Part shown: positions 1,770-31,197 of the stretch, in pieces
Layout of the letters: every line of letters starts with the position of its first letter
How positions within the stretch are numbered: position 1 is the first letter of the stretch
From: an uncultured Pelagibacteraceae bacterium
GTDB lineage: Bacteria > Pseudomonadota > Alphaproteobacteria > Pelagibacterales > Pelagibacteraceae
Direction: 5' to 3'
Length of the DNA stretch: 64,000 nt
Assembly: GCA_902540235.1 (NCBI GenBank)
Contig: CACBLI010000007.1
Coordinates: 26,450-90,449, forward strand
The notes under the pieces: generated by a model
Told to the model about the DNA's origin: nothing
Databases searched by the model: none
What the model saw: the letters and a program-made list of their open reading frames with translations, nothing else
Translations under genes and position numbers: made by a program

Positions 1770-1966
1770 TGATTTCTCTCTATTCTTATAATTTTCATAT
1801 CTTCATCTAATTCTGCTTTTACTTTTGAGCATATATAAAGAGCATTACTATTTCTGGTGCTTATTCTCTTTTTCTCAATACATTTTTTGACACTAGGCAT
1901 ATAGGTCATTTCTATTAATTTTTGTTCTGCACCAACAAACATTAATAAAGCCATAATCTCTACCAT
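1766..1966 (-). CDS. Hypothetical phage protein, 66 aa
   Basis: Small ORF between the Rz-like gene and the small terminase, overlapping the latter by an ATGA junction and abutting the former at base 1966. The N-terminal 20 residues are hydrophobic (MALLMFVG) and the rest is charged with two cysteines. A start at the second Met (residue 5) is equally possible. I do not recognise a family. Its place inside an apparent lysis and packaging cassette suggests a small accessory role only by context. Confidence 0.55.
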   Translation of the reverse strand: MVEIMALLMFVGAEQKLIEMTYMPSVKKCIEKKRISTRNSNALYICSKVKAELDEDMKIIRIERNQ

Positions 1967-2316
1967 TAGTGTCCACTCCCATTTCTAATTAATTTTTCTA
2001 CGTCTTCTTGTAATTTTTCTATCTTCTTAGTTGCTTCATTTAATAAAACTTTTGTATGAATATTTTCATCTAGCATTGCTTGATGTTTCTCTAGAATACC
2101 TGCGTTATGCTCAATCAACATTAGCATTTCTAAATTTCTAGGTGTCTGTTCAGCTTTCTTTAATAAGTCAGCTTCCATCAATTGCTTTGAAGTTTCTAAT
2201 GTATTTAATCTTTCAACAATTCCAAAGTAAGCCCACAAGCCAGAACAAATTACAAAAATCAAAGCTACTAAATTACGAATAGGTAAACTTAGATTTGTTT
2301 CTGAATTTATTTTCAT
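1966..2316 (-). CDS. Membrane-anchored coiled-coil protein, candidate Rz-like inner spanin
   Basis: A 116-residue protein with one N-terminal transmembrane helix at about residues 14-33 (LPIRNLVALIFVICSGLWAYFG). A long, charged, heptad-like helix follows to the C-terminus. This is the architecture of Rz-type inner-membrane spanins. T7 keeps its spanin genes (18.5/18.7) in this same interval next to terminase. The start overlaps the stop of the 77-residue ORF by four bases. The topology is seen; the spanin role is inference, and a structural coiled-coil protein is the alternative. Confidence 0.6.
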   Translation of the reverse strand: MKINSETNLSLPIRNLVALIFVICSGLWAYFGIVERLNTLETSKQLMEADLLKKAEQTPRNLEMLMLIEHNAGILEKHQAMLDENIHTKVLLNEATKKIEKLQEDVEKLIRNGSGH

Positions 2317-6843: not shown

Positions 6844-9800
6844 TTAATTAAGTCCGAATGTAGTTATCGGTTTGAGTTTTAAGATTTGTTTGTTATTTCT
6901 ATTTCTAGAAATTGTTTCACTATTTGCTTTATTGTTGGCTATAGCTTTTTTCAAAGTTAGCTTTTCATTATCTACAAATAAGAAGTCTTTCTTTTCCAAT
7001 TCAAATTTACTTTTTGCTTTTTGTATGTATTGATTTTGGATAAATCTTAATCTTTCGTATTTACTGCCATTATCAGTAATACCTTTACCTATAGTTATTG
7101 GGTCTGACTTATTCTTATAACTATCAAGTTGTATTTCTGCTTCTAATGCTTGACGTAATGTCTTTCCATTAATTGTAATAGTAGAAACCAATTGGTTCAT
7201 TCTATCGTATGCAGAAACTTTACCTTTTTTATATTTAGCATATTCAACTAAATCCATAAACTTAGGTAAGACTGGTAATCCTTTTCCTAATCTAACTATT
7301 TCTTCAGCAATAATATCGCTTCGCTTTTGTGTAGTAGCTAAAGGATTAATAGCGTTCTTAATAAATCTTTTTATTCCACTATCTTTATCTTTGTGTGCTT
7401 CACCTAGTGCATTGTATCTAGGAGAAGAAGGTGTTCCCATTCCTGTCCTATTTTTAACTTGTTCAATAATTCCTGTAGCGTCTCTATAGTATGGGTCATT
7501 AACAAATTTATAAACAATGTTTGGAACATAACTTCCTATCTTTTGAGAAAGGTATCTTTGCATTGCTCTTTCATCTTCAGTATTAAATGCTTCAACTAAA
7601 TCTGCTAAACCTCTTAAATAAGTTTTACTAAAGATATTTCTTTTGACTGCTTCATAACCTGAACCTAAAAATATTTGTGCTTTCTGTCCGAAGTCTAATG
7701 GATTTTTACCACCATTCTGCAACATCATTATTTGCATATCTGCACCAAATCTTTCGATTTCTTCTTCAGTCATTTGGTCATAGACACTTACGAAGTCTAC
7801 CATTATTCCAAGTAATGCACCGTATGGGTCTAGTTGTCCGAATGGTAATTGTCTTCCATCATCAAAGACATATGAATAAGGTTTGAAACCTAAATCAGAT
7901 TTTTTCATTCTGATAATTTCAGCGTCTTTATAAATATCTAAATTCTTTTCTCCTACCTTACCAGTTCGACCTTGTAGTTTACCTTGTTGTGCAAGTATGT
8001 AAGCTACACTTAAAATAATACTTCCAACTGCTAATTGACCTCTTGCTTTTGCAATTGCTACTGGGTCACCACTTTTCCCTAGTATATCTCCATATCTATA
8101 AGCTAAAGCCAAAGGAGACCTGTCTGCTATTGCTTTTGCAATGTTTGTAGGTGTTTTAACGAAAGGAAAGAATTGTTTTAAATAAGGTTGAGAGTTTACT
8201 AAATCTGCAAACTTATCTGTAAATCCAACTAATTCATTAGTAAATGTATTTTCTTCAGCATATCTTAATGCTTCTTCATTTACTCCTCTTAATCCAGTTT
8301 CGTCATATCCTTGTTTGATATATTCATCTACGTATTTTTTAATATCTGTCTTTTTAGTTAAACCTAATTTTTTAGCTTCTCTAACTGCTTGTGCTTTAAG
8401 TTTACCTCTATAATTAATCTGTTTAAAAAATTCATCAGTAGCATTTAAAAATCTTGATGGTGTTCTAACAATAGCACCACCTAAATAATCAGGAACTTCT
8501 TTTGTGACAGAAGTATCAAACTTAGAAGCACCTGCGTCTTTTGATTGTAAAACTAATTCACCATTTCTAAAAGCAACACCTGCATATTTTAAAGAAGCAG
8601 ATAAACTTTCTGCCATTCCTGCATATCTTGCTATTGCTTCTTCTGTATTTAATTTAAATGCTTTTGCTTTATCAAGGTCATTAAATGATATTAATTCTGA
8701 TATTTTACTTCCAATAGCTTCTTCCATTGGTCTCATCATTCCTATTACACCATTAGATACTGCATTAACTAATTGTGTTTTTGGTGATGATAGCAATGCG
8801 TTAATCCATATTTCATTAGCCACATTCCACATTCTGTTTTTAAGAGCAAAGTTAAGAACTTGTCTACCTACTGTTGGATTATCGGCTCTACCTAATCTTT
8901 CAAGAAACATATCAAAACCTTTTTGTCCACCACCGAAATTTTTGTATGCGTTTCTTGCGTTTATAAATTCTTCTTCTACGTATTTAGCTTGTAAAAATTC
9001 TTCTTTAGTTAAATTAAATATTCTTAAATTTCTACCAGTTGCAGTACGAACTCTTTTTGCATTGATTGTCATATTCTCAATCATAAACATCATAAGTTCC
9101 ATATCACCTTTAGTACGGTTTCCTTTTTTGTACTGTCTTATGAATTTTGGAAATGCGTTTAGCAATGAAGTATAAGCAACTTCGTGTGCAAATATTAATG
9201 AGTTTGTATTATCAACATTATCTGCAAACTTAGCAAAATCTTGAAATACTTGGTTTACATCACCACCATAATCATTAATGGCTTTTCTTTTGACTGCTTC
9301 ATCAGTCATTCTTTTTGTTAATTTTGTATTAGTAGCAGTTATAGCGTCATAGAAAGATTTAAATGTTCTAACACCTTCTATAGTTAAACCTTCATTTTTA
9401 CCTGTCTTAGGATTTTTAAGTTTAAAAGTATCTAGATTAATAAATCCTTCAGGAATATTAAATGCTTCTTCTGAAGTAAGCTCACCTTTATTCCATCTTT
9501 CAAAATTATTTTTTAATCCTGATTTAACAGTATCATTTATAATTTTAATTCTTTGAGACTGATTTAATTGTTTTGTTTTAAATTTCTTTGGAAACGCTTC
9601 ATCTAAAGCCGTATTAAGAATATCCATCTTTTGACTAATTGTCTGCGCTTCATTTAATCTATCGCCTACTTCAACAAAAACATTATTAGTCTTATCTAAA
9701 TATGCTTGGTCTTCTTTTGCTTGTTTAGTTTCTATTTTTCTATCTCTAATAGCTTTACCAAATCTAACACCTCTAAATAGTGCTTCTGCTATTGAACCTA

Positions 9801-28352: not shown

Positions 28353-28422
28353 ATTATACTCCTATAATTTGGCTTCGTTTATGTAGCCATAAGTGGAACT
28401 TTATTTGCACAAGTGCAAAGGT
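28353..28422 (-). promoter_or_regulatory. Spacer between RNA polymerase and SSB with palindrome
   Basis: This 70-base gap contains the 14-mer TTGCACAAGTGCAA at 28405-28418, immediately after the polymerase stop codon. As RNA it would form a 6-bp stem with a CTTG tetraloop. It is the fourth member of the palindrome family found near the attachment site. It could act as operator, terminator or processing site. The SSB ribosome site (AGGAG) lies at the left end. Confidence 0.45.
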
Positions 28423-30093
28423 CTAGACGCAAAAAAAGACACTTTGCTTTACTAAAGCTAAATCCAAGTTTCCTCTTTGAGGAATATTAGGAAATTTCTT
28501 CATATTCTTATAAGAAAGCATTTGTCTCATTTCCATCGCCCAGTTAGCAAGAACATCGTTTTCATATATTTCACAAAATGCTTCTCTTATAGCTTCTGAC
28601 AACATATCTACATCAGGTGCTACACAACCAAAACTATCGTGAATTAAACTAAAGTTAGTCACTCCTTTTTGTTTAGCTTTAACAACTGCTAAATGTAAAA
28701 CACTAGCGTCAAGAGAATGTATAAAGTTAGGACAAATAGATTGTGCAGTTTTTCTTTTATCAATTACATCAGTATCTGATTGTATAGATAATTTAATTAT
28801 ACTGTCTCCCATCTTAGTCTTCACCCTTTTGCTTTCTTTTTTATAACACATCATTTGTACTGGAAATCCTAAAGGTGTTGTCCAAGTCACTGGTAAGTTT
28901 TCTGAAGCAACTAATCGAGATACTTTTTTCAAAAAATCCATAATCTCTTTTGCACCAACTATTACATCATTAATACTTGACCAAACAATTGGTTGAAGAA
29001 AGTTAGTAGCTTTAAATAAATCATTACCGAAGTTATGTTGTACTCCACGTTCTTTTAATTCTTTTTCAACGTGGTCTTGTAGATATTGCCTACAAGAATA
29101 TTGAGTTAAAGAATATGGTAAACACATTACAGGTTTCTTACATAGCTTTCTGTCTACACCATAATCTAACCACTTCTTAGCTAATGGGTCAGGATTTACT
29201 TCTAATTTTTCTATCACTTTTTCAGATACGGTTCTGTAAACATCTTCTGGTTTATTTGATGGAATTAGATTAGTAGCTTTACCACCTATTTCGTCTCTCA
29301 TCATTGCTGAATAATGTTGTAAACCAGAATTACTACAGTCTGATTGTATTGGTAGTGTAGTAATAAAACTAGCGTCAAAGTCTGTTTCTGCAAAGTCTTT
29401 GAGTTCAAAACACCAAGCAAGAAAACAAAAAGATTTATCAGCTTGTGACCAATAAGTATCTTCTAGTGGGTTCTTTGCACAATTTATAAATCGTTGCATA
29501 TTATCTTTAACCCAATCTAATCTTGTTTGAATGTCTTCTTTATCTACTTCTCCAAATAATCCTGCACCTGCGATTGCAAAACTATCAAAACTACTATTTT
29601 CTTTCATTTGTTTTCCATACTTAAATTTAAGTAATGCTCTAGAATAGTCAGCACCTTGTGGAGATAACATTGCAGGTTTTGGATAACCTCTTGACCTAAA
29701 GTCTATTTGGTGAGGAAAGAAGAAAGACCTATCTTTTAATAAATTAGCTTCTTCAAGAATTTGTCTTACCTGTATATATTTAGATTTTGATTTAGCTTGT
29801 TCTTTGTAAATATTAGACGCTTCTCTTTTCCATCTAACTAAACTCTCCTTATTGGTAGCTATATCTATTGGTTTGACTGGAAGTTCCATACTTTGAGGAT
29901 TTACTGGTAGCTTTCCCAAAGTCACATCTTTTTTAATTAATGTTTCTATGACATCTAAAACAGGTTTATTTATAACCCATTCAGTTTCCTGCATAATATT
30001 TATGCTATCGTAAAGGTCTTTCATTTCGTGACCTCTATTTTTAAGTTCTTCTAAGTATCTTCTGTTTGACGCTTTTACTAAATTATAGTGCAT
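28423..30093 (-). CDS. T7-type RNA polymerase, C-terminal (catalytic) part
   Basis: 556 residues from ATG 30093 (MHYNLVKASN), which has GAGG at 30100-30103, six bases upstream. The palm and fingers are complete. Residues equivalent to T7 Asp537, Lys631, Tyr639 and Asp812 are Asp252 (QSDCSNSGLQH), Lys319, Tyr327 (KKPVMCLPY) and Asp486 (LIHDSFG). The N-terminal part of the enzyme is in another frame (30083-31051), ending with TAA 11 bases into this ORF. The frame remains open upstream to 30153. This may be a true split enzyme, a frameshifted gene or an assembly error. Confidence 0.88.
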   Translation of the reverse strand: MHYNLVKASNRRYLEELKNRGHEMKDLYDSINIMQETEWVINKPVLDVIETLIKKDVTLGKLPVNPQSMELPVKPIDIATNKESLVRWKREASNIYKEQAKSKSKYIQVRQILEEANLLKDRSFFFPHQIDFRSRGYPKPAMLSPQGADYSRALLKFKYGKQMKENSSFDSFAIAGAGLFGEVDKEDIQTRLDWVKDNMQRFINCAKNPLEDTYWSQADKSFCFLAWCFELKDFAETDFDASFITTLPIQSDCSNSGLQHYSAMMRDEIGGKATNLIPSNKPEDVYRTVSEKVIEKLEVNPDPLAKKWLDYGVDRKLCKKPVMCLPYSLTQYSCRQYLQDHVEKELKERGVQHNFGNDLFKATNFLQPIVWSSINDVIVGAKEIMDFLKKVSRLVASENLPVTWTTPLGFPVQMMCYKKESKRVKTKMGDSIIKLSIQSDTDVIDKRKTAQSICPNFIHSLDASVLHLAVVKAKQKGVTNFSLIHDSFGCVAPDVDMLSEAIREAFCEIYENDVLANWAMEMRQMLSYKNMKKFPNIPQRGNLDLALVKQSVFFCV

Positions 30094-31051
30094 TTTTAAC
30101 CTCATCTGGTTTGTTTTCGTGATTGTGTTTTCTTCCGTAATATCCACCAACAAAAGGATTATATTCCCATTTTCTAGGTGGCATTAACATTGGAAGGTAT
30201 TTAGGTTGAAGTGCTTCATTCTTGATATTGAAATTCCTAATCTCGTCTATGATTTTTCTAGTAGCTTCAACATAAGTGACTGTCTTGAATTTATTTAGCT
30301 TTCTATTCTGGTGTTTTACTAAACCCAGTTTTTCTAGAAAACCAATCATCTTAACTCCAAGATGAAGTCTCCCTTCCTTGCCCCAATCGTCAAACTCCAG
30401 TTGGTTTTTATTAATCATATAAGTCCAAACTTTATGCTTATATTGATACCTATTTACCTTCTGAGGTATGTTCTTTCCTGCAAGTCTTTTATATATCCTA
30501 TTATAATTTTCTTTATCTCTATCCTTGAACATCGTTATTCTAGCTTCCATCATCAAGCCAGTTCCTATCTTAATAGCTAGTTTATTCATTGTGGTTTCAT
30601 TGCTGATACCATCAATTGTATTCTTCAAAACTATCAACGAACAGGTATCCCAAACTGTATGTTCTTTAGAAAGAAATACACCTTTATCAAAAGCTGATTT
30701 TGGTAGACATTGACACAATAATTTTAGTGCAGTCATTCGATTACCTGCGCCACCATCTTCCATAGTCTTAATATCGCCATTAATTAATAAGGACAGTTTA
30801 GTTATATATTTCTGTTGTAATACTAGACCGTGAAGTGTTGTGCTTTCTTGACCTTTAGCAATAGCGTCTTTTACGGTCTTTCTGAAACGGTCTATACCAC
30901 CTTGTAGCATAGCGTCTTCAAATTCTAATTCTTCTTGAATACGTTTTGTATAATCTGAATTATCTTTAAACTTGCCACCTACGCCTACTTTGACAAGTTC
31001 TTGTAATTGTAATTGTAGGTCTTGTTGTTGTTGATTTAATATATCGGACAT
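30083..31051 (-). CDS. T7-type RNA polymerase, N-terminal part
   Basis: 322 residues matching the promoter-binding N-terminal domain and start of the thumb of T7 RNA polymerase: FEDAMLQGGIDRFRK near 45, LHLGVKMIGFLEKLGLV near 230, and LPMLMPPRKWEYNPFVGGYY near 290, aligning with the T7 segment VVPPKPWTGITGGGYW. It stops with TAA just before the LVKAS segment that continues in the other frame. Together the two parts (about 880 residues) equal T7 RNA polymerase (883). The gene is the first of the prophage after the tRNA junction. Confidence 0.88.
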   Translation of the reverse strand: MSDILNQQQQDLQLQLQELVKVGVGGKFKDNSDYTKRIQEELEFEDAMLQGGIDRFRKTVKDAIAKGQESTTLHGLVLQQKYITKLSLLINGDIKTMEDGGAGNRMTALKLLCQCLPKSAFDKGVFLSKEHTVWDTCSLIVLKNTIDGISNETTMNKLAIKIGTGLMMEARITMFKDRDKENYNRIYKRLAGKNIPQKVNRYQYKHKVWTYMINKNQLEFDDWGKEGRLHLGVKMIGFLEKLGLVKHQNRKLNKFKTVTYVEATRKIIDEIRNFNIKNEALQPKYLPMLMPPRKWEYNPFVGGYYGRKHNHENKPDEVKNAL

Positions 31052-31077: not shown

Positions 31078-31197
31078 TTGCAGAAGTGCAGGATACAGTA
31101 GTTTTGATACAATTTGATACAAGACTATCGCACAAGTGCAAAGATTGATTTTTTAAAAAAACACAAGCAACACAATAGTAATTCGTCACTTGTGCAA
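31078..31197. promoter_or_regulatory. Attachment-proximal control region with palindromes and tandem repeat
   Basis: Three related dyads lie between the tRNA junction and the RNA polymerase start: TTGCAGAAGTGCAG (31078-31091), TCGCACAAGTGCAA (31128-31141) and, inverted, CGTCACTTGTGCAA (31184-31197). A perfect tandem pair of TTTGATACAA (31103-31112, 31113-31122) lies between them, spaced one helical turn. A fourth dyad follows the polymerase gene at 28405. This arrangement suits repressor operators or integrase arm sites; the binder is unknown. Confidence 0.5.

Follow-up and report, generated by a model that had tools for sequence, protein, structure and literature searches.

How should a phage RNA polymerase gene be read when its two halves stand in different frames? 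The question is raised by the window analysed here, a stretch of 64,000 nucleotides (nt) from an uncultured Pelagibacteraceae bacterium (contig CACBLI010000007.1), in which a relative of T7 RNA polymerase, the textbook single-chain polymerase, is encoded on the minus strand by two overlapping open reading frames (ORFs). The upstream ORF, hereafter N (30083..31051), begins with ATG and specifies the N-terminal domain in 322 amino acids (aa); the downstream ORF, C (28423..30093), specifies the thumb, palm and fingers in 556 aa from an ATG at 30093. The two overlap by 11 nt (30083..30093), with the TAA stop of N (30085-30083) falling within the start of C, and a ribosome-binding-type GAGG (30100..30103, same strand) lies six bases ahead of the C ATG, all as a first-pass annotation of this DNA had placed them. 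That annotation offered three explanations: a two-polypeptide enzyme made by coupled translation, a programmed +1 frameshift, and a one-base gain by mutation or sequencing error. The evidence set out below favors the first: N and C are very probably two adjacent genes whose proteins are predicted to associate non-covalently into one active polymerase, likely a natural two-subunit enzyme of the T7 type.

The two frames divide the polymerase between them. N matches the Pfam domain RPOL_N and covers positions 3-260 of phrog_414, and C matches RNA_pol (PF00940, 329 bits) and covers positions 258-814, which bears out the earlier description of a T7-type polymerase in frames of 322 and 556 residues. 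C is also the only RNA_pol match with an E-value up to 0.001 in the host genome (1.16 Mb, 22 contigs). In BLASTP comparisons N aligns with T7 residues 28-292 and C with 313-880, that is, with non-overlapping parts; in one alignment block the C residues Y3-N4-L5 stand opposite T7 L294-A295-L296 (residues counted by hand). A structural model of C superposes on T7 RNA polymerase (1cez) with a template-modelling (TM) score of 0.88, its residues 1-556 falling on T7 280-883, and the model of N matches T7 residues ~9-260. Taken together, the BLASTP matches, the alignment block and the structure alignment place the cut near T7 residues 280-293, where, with the domain borders that we take T7 to have, the N-terminal domain gives way to the thumb. 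A C start at T7 residue 210 was discarded as an alignment artefact, with two residues stranded in a gap; in another alignment the first four residues of two C rows were stranded likewise. The residues D537, R627, K631, Y639, H811 and D812 (T7 numbering), which we take to be a hallmark of the family, show no variation across the 96 distinct C proteins examined, the window protein included; D537, K631, Y639 and D812 are thus kept throughout, in line with the earlier remark that four key catalytic residues are intact. The N-terminal domain of the T7-like ('single-subunit') family is present, and the family's single polypeptide, judged from the genes only, is absent. Separately, we observed that the position of T7 F882 holds C in the 96 distinct split C proteins and in the phage HTVC011P, and F in T7 and six single-chain outgroups; the window C protein ends in FFCV (28426-28437).

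The junction sits at a homopolymer run, a circumstance that would favor a sequencing or assembly error or a fresh mutation private to this prophage. The same 11-nt overlap, however, recurs in independent assemblies, namely L009, L010 and the Pelagibacteraceae contigs L089-L093. Over the 2629-nt pair, five of these differ from the window by 45 (L009), 50 (L090), 68 (L091), 37 (L092) and 238 (L093) substitutions at equal length. L010 is incomplete and was not counted in this comparison; L089 counts for little, since its polymerase pair is one base off the window and it may come from the same population. Such length-conserved, substituted relatives rule out a sequencing error or fresh mutation, the chance of which we put as negligible, and with it goes the one-base gain of the first-pass annotation.

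We surveyed the junction across relatives using scans of viral contigs (the best 80 of 114 matches, the best 80 of 357, and 13) and of genome contigs (11 loci), with some loci being the same contigs. In all, both halves were present at 173 loci, 166 of them split and 7 single; collapsing identical 200-nt junctions left 110 distinct ones; three further loci, each at a contig end, were left out as they carry N only (L020) or C only (L103 and L132). The distinct junctions comprise 103 split and 7 single ones, the latter being HTVC011P and six single-ORF outgroups that were fetched deliberately. The first-pass annotation had pointed to related pelagiphages as the relevant comparison: within the clade the split recurs in 103 of 104 distinct junctions, the exception being HTVC011P, recorded as a single ORF of 880 aa (L006 2953-5595).

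The split junctions show eleven spacings: overlaps of 32 (27 junctions), 29 (12), 20 (2), 11 (8) and 1 nt (29), and gaps of 1 (17), 3 (1), 5 (2), 9 (1), 131 (3) and 497 nt (1). Among annotated split records, HTVC041P has the 32-nt overlap, the metagenomic S30-C28 that of 29 nt, and Gjalp and Eyrgjafa that of 20 nt; the Chosvirus KM23-C739 has a 1-nt gap, and HTVC025P the 497-nt gap, which holds two annotated small genes. N ends in TAA (88) or TAG (15), and C starts with ATG in 94 of 103 and with GTG in 9 of 103. In the window the automatic ORF listing opens the C frame at a TTG, 20 codons ahead of the ATG at 30093-30091. A match of at least 4 nt to AAGGAGGT precedes the C start in all 103 split junctions, compared with 11.8% of 4148 internal ATGs in any frame, taken as controls from the same loci downstream of the start; for matches of at least 5 nt the figures are 95 of 103 and 3.3%. 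The spacing, start codons and ribosome-site matches together form the pattern expected of two genes, and one unlike that of a recoding site.

The last point bears on a programmed frameshift of the kind known from prfB, by which a ribosome slipping +1 near the N stop would yield one long chain. In the window the N frame does end in CTA-TAA-T, with the second frame +1 to it. Across relatives this arrangement dissolves: the CTATAAT context is present in only 6 of 103 junctions; C is +1 relative to N in 66, whereas a -1 slip would be required in 35 and readthrough of an intervening stop, in the same frame, in 2. In 10 junctions the stretch open in both frames ahead of the N stop is shorter than 3 nt, leaving scarcely any room for a slip from one to the other, and in HTVC025P two genes lie between the halves. 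A start codon with a ribosome-site match stands ahead of C in every case. The conserved slippery stop context and constant +1 relation of a prfB-type site are thus not seen over the 103 junctions; the varying stop context and relative frame rule out such a site across the relatives, and we hold it very improbable that the +1 shift suggested at CTA-TAA-T operates. Of the three explanations first offered, two genes remain the best supported, the translational coupling attached to them being our inference.

Are both halves needed? Chen et al. 2019 speak of a 'fragmented' gene and of 'gene interruption' (PMC6811365), wording that would suit a tolerated interruption in which C alone is an adequate polymerase and N a vestige. 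All the catalytic residues that were checked fall in the C half, as this would have it. Yet the N half does not look like a relic: its median ratio of nonsynonymous to synonymous substitution rates (dN/dS) is 0.12 (202 pairs), against 0.22 for C (925 pairs), both being mostly under purifying selection. Moreover, 40 alignment columns of N are invariant in 46 sequences, and in none of the 166 split loci with both halves are N and C more than 497 nt apart. The T7 counterpart of this domain has an established role in promoter binding. We therefore consider a vestigial N quite improbable.

Nor does the split appear to cripple the phage. Four split phages have records that give a cultured host, and three of these phages we take to be isolates. 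The fourth, HTVC025P, is given as an isolate by Chen et al. (PMC6811365). Since phages named as isolates on cultured hosts are split alike, the earlier suggestion that the split disables lytic growth does not fit.

To trace the origin of the split we turned to trees of the C part. In a tree of 70 rows, a branch with support of 100/99 separates HTVC011P and the 62 split representatives from the seven remaining rows. A second tree of 48 rows includes all nine single-ORF relatives of at least 805 aa, which were found among the 81 proteins newly listed in a search with a Chosvirus-type C. Here 31 split-labelled rows and HTVC011P fall on one side of a branch supported at 95/86, and the fewest changes needed are 2. 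The 31 rows comprise 13 loci split in their DNA and 18 metagenome proteins labelled by their C-half size, most of which also start with MHYN (P0287 starts with MHLN and P0290 with MYNS). Most simply, these patterns would reflect a single ancient split that predates the last ancestor shared by the Stopavirus, Fussvirus and Chosvirus relatives, followed by one return, in HTVC011P.

HTVC011P might be thought to prove an ancestral single chain. We reject this, as in both trees it is nested beside L144, itself split, and in its metagenomic relatives L144, L147, L150 and L152, whose N is 99.4-100% identical, the polymerase is divided and its two frames overlap by 29 nt. The single frame of HTVC011P may have arisen privately or may reflect a faulty record. 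A search with the full-length HTVC011P protein returned, among the 120 matches listed (of 221), none that reaches 700 aa and 116 that begin with [MV]H[YF]N.

A variant of the two-subunit reading, rather than a rival to it, would have the split arise independently in the Chosvirus type and in the window type. Four single-chain proteins, P0291, P0292, P0294 and P0295 (805-811 aa, 41-45% identical to a Chosvirus-type C half), score closer to a Chosvirus-type C than the window-type Cs do, and the uniting branch reaches only 95/86. However, both types share the place of the cut and typically begin with MHYN or MHFN, which is found there in none of the nine single-ORF relatives, the six single-ORF outgroups and T7, and the tree that includes the single-ORF rows still needs only 2 changes. 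Two origins thus seem unlikely; as near unsplit relatives, these four proteins will be useful in placing the split.

Several considerations count against the two-subunit interpretation or the history sketched for it. Assembly and activity are predictions made from genes and modelled structures. The model of N is of modest confidence (predicted local distance difference test, pLDDT, 71), its T7 match has a root-mean-square deviation over 6, and the halves were modelled singly. The queries for the loci were mostly split and the best 80 of 114 and of 357 matches were kept, so that close relatives are favored in the counts. AAGGAGGT is a general core that may differ from the end of the host's own 16S rRNA, and some pairs reach dN/dS values of 0.99 (N) and 0.66 (C). 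In the 48-row tree, 18 of the 31 split rows are labelled by size and not by their own DNA, and the branch joining the Chosvirus-type and window-type splits has moderate support. Finally, HTVC011P is on record as one ORF, and hence a single chain may also work.

If N and C are indeed two subunits, one messenger would be translated into N and then into C from its own start and ribosome-binding site, translation presumably being coupled where the genes overlap. The two proteins would dock like the N-domain and the body of T7 RNA polymerase, with no covalent link, and the enzyme would transcribe the phage genes as in T7. Possible gains from such a split include the dosing of subunits, easier folding and regulation of the enzyme during lysogeny. 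A bolder proposal, to which we give only an outside chance, is that the promoter-binding N-domain acts as a detachable sigma-like subunit, and that the C core can be kept idle in a lysogen until a matching N activates it, or can even be shared among co-infecting phages by this means.

The gene pair lies in what is apparently a phage genome integrated in a likely SAR11 bacterium; the host is judged to be of this kind because the polymerase pair of the Pelagibacteraceae contig L089 is only one base different. Downstream (3') of C come genes for ssb (Gp2.5-like), endonuclease, amidase, primase/helicase and DNA polymerase, much as in annotated relatives. On the integrase side the border is marked by a complete tRNA-Leu(TAG) (L158 7127-7210) and an integrase beside the trigger factor and clpP genes. 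On the polymerase side we recognised by eye the 5' half of a tRNA-Leu (~31257-31219); ARAGORN reports no tRNA in the window. The prophage thus seems to span ~36.6 kb between these two ends, and no other phage gene lies between the polymerase genes and the tRNA-Leu half. With these likely borders, the host tRNA promoter would face the polymerase genes in the lysogen. The element shows the traits of group III pelagiphages of the Stopavirus/Fussvirus type: a split polymerase followed by ssb, endonuclease and lysozyme, an integrase, and a tRNA-Leu site at trigger factor. Chen et al. describe in its relatives an identical tRNA-Leu site, a phage-borne tRNA-Leu and a trigger factor flank (PMC6811365). 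Elsewhere in the window (1966-2316), a 116-aa ORF appears by eye to encode a membrane segment with a coiled-coil-like region after it; the sole Pfam match of this ORF, to a poxvirus family, scores 20.7 bits, under the cut-off of 22.3, and is probably due to chance.

A candidate control element accompanies the polymerase genes. Palindromes near TTGCACwwGTGCAA (at most 2 mismatches) are confined within the window to three sites, two before N (31128-31141 and 31078-31091) and one before ssb (28405-28418); in L158 there is one, at 9428-9441, before the gene preceding the integrase, with 0.35 expected by chance. At up to 3 mismatches the 12 found in the window are at chance level (14.06 expected). 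Self-complementary sites (at least 12 of 14 positions) with a GCA half are present upstream of N in 15 of 82 distinct regions (letter shuffles: 5 of 1640) and after C in 30 of 74 (letter shuffles: 3 of 1480); by this measure palindrome-type sites are found in a minority of relatives. In several relatives the palindrome is found again at comparable places and its copies vary together, much as the operator of a repressor would. A small protein beside the integrase has a weak winged-helix match, below cut-off. We may guess at a repressor by which the polymerase is kept silent in the lysogen.

The closest precedent is the group III of HTVC019Pvirus pelagiphages, in which Chen et al. 2019 reported a 'fragmented' polymerase gene for HTVC025P, uv-Fonsiphage-EPL and metagenomic relatives (PMC6811365). 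The group then held six genomes, and the gene was split in all but HTVC011P, i.e. in five; for uv-Fonsiphage-EPL they report that no unsplit polymerase reads were found. It shares with the window the gene, the kind of phage and the integration at tRNA-Leu/trigger factor. A search of open-licence papers for split, fragmented or two-ORF pelagiphage polymerases brought up that one paper as stating the split, and a two-subunit reading may exist elsewhere. To its description as a fragmented gene we add the start sites and geometry of the junction, the selection on the halves and their phylogeny: new here are the junction census, the exclusion of recoding, the conserved start with its ribosome-site match, the selection analysis, the extension to the Chosvirus type, the trees, the comparison with phage N4 and the two-subunit reading itself. 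It follows from this reading that annotators should not treat these polymerase genes as broken.

The polymerases of T7, HTVC019P, Eistla and LUZ100 have the same domains and catalytic residues, but in one chain of 814-883 aa; HTVC019P also shares the gene order of integrase, polymerase, ssb, endonuclease and lysozyme. Engineered T7 RNA polymerase is reported to keep working after being cut in two within any of five regions (PMC4299498), and there too two co-expressed pieces restore activity, though these are man-made, with cuts named at 67, 179 and 601. In nature, the RNAPII of N4 is described as a heterodimer of gp15, which carries the N-terminus, thumb and DxxGR motif, and gp16, which carries the palm and fingers (PMC4496689). 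Like the window pair, it consists of two polypeptides of the T7-like family on non-overlapping T7 parts; in our BLASTP comparison gp15 extends up to T7 residue 452 (a weak match, E-value 0.016) and gp16 starts from 459. N4 RNAPII is thus cut after the thumb and DxxGR (~T7 452-459), whereas the window pair is cut before the thumb (~280-293); its subunits have 269 and 404 aa against 322 and 556, and N4 belongs to a different phage family. An enzyme of the N4 RNAPII type also depends on a gp2-like, single-stranded DNA-binding cofactor to use its promoters. The review of N4 states that the origin and advantage of the heterodimeric form 'remain unclear' (PMC4496689). The window pair would represent a second natural cut, in another place and maintained in many phages akin to those of SAR11, in a lineage that has single-chain sisters and one single-frame record, so that the cost and benefit of splitting such a polymerase could be tested side by side.
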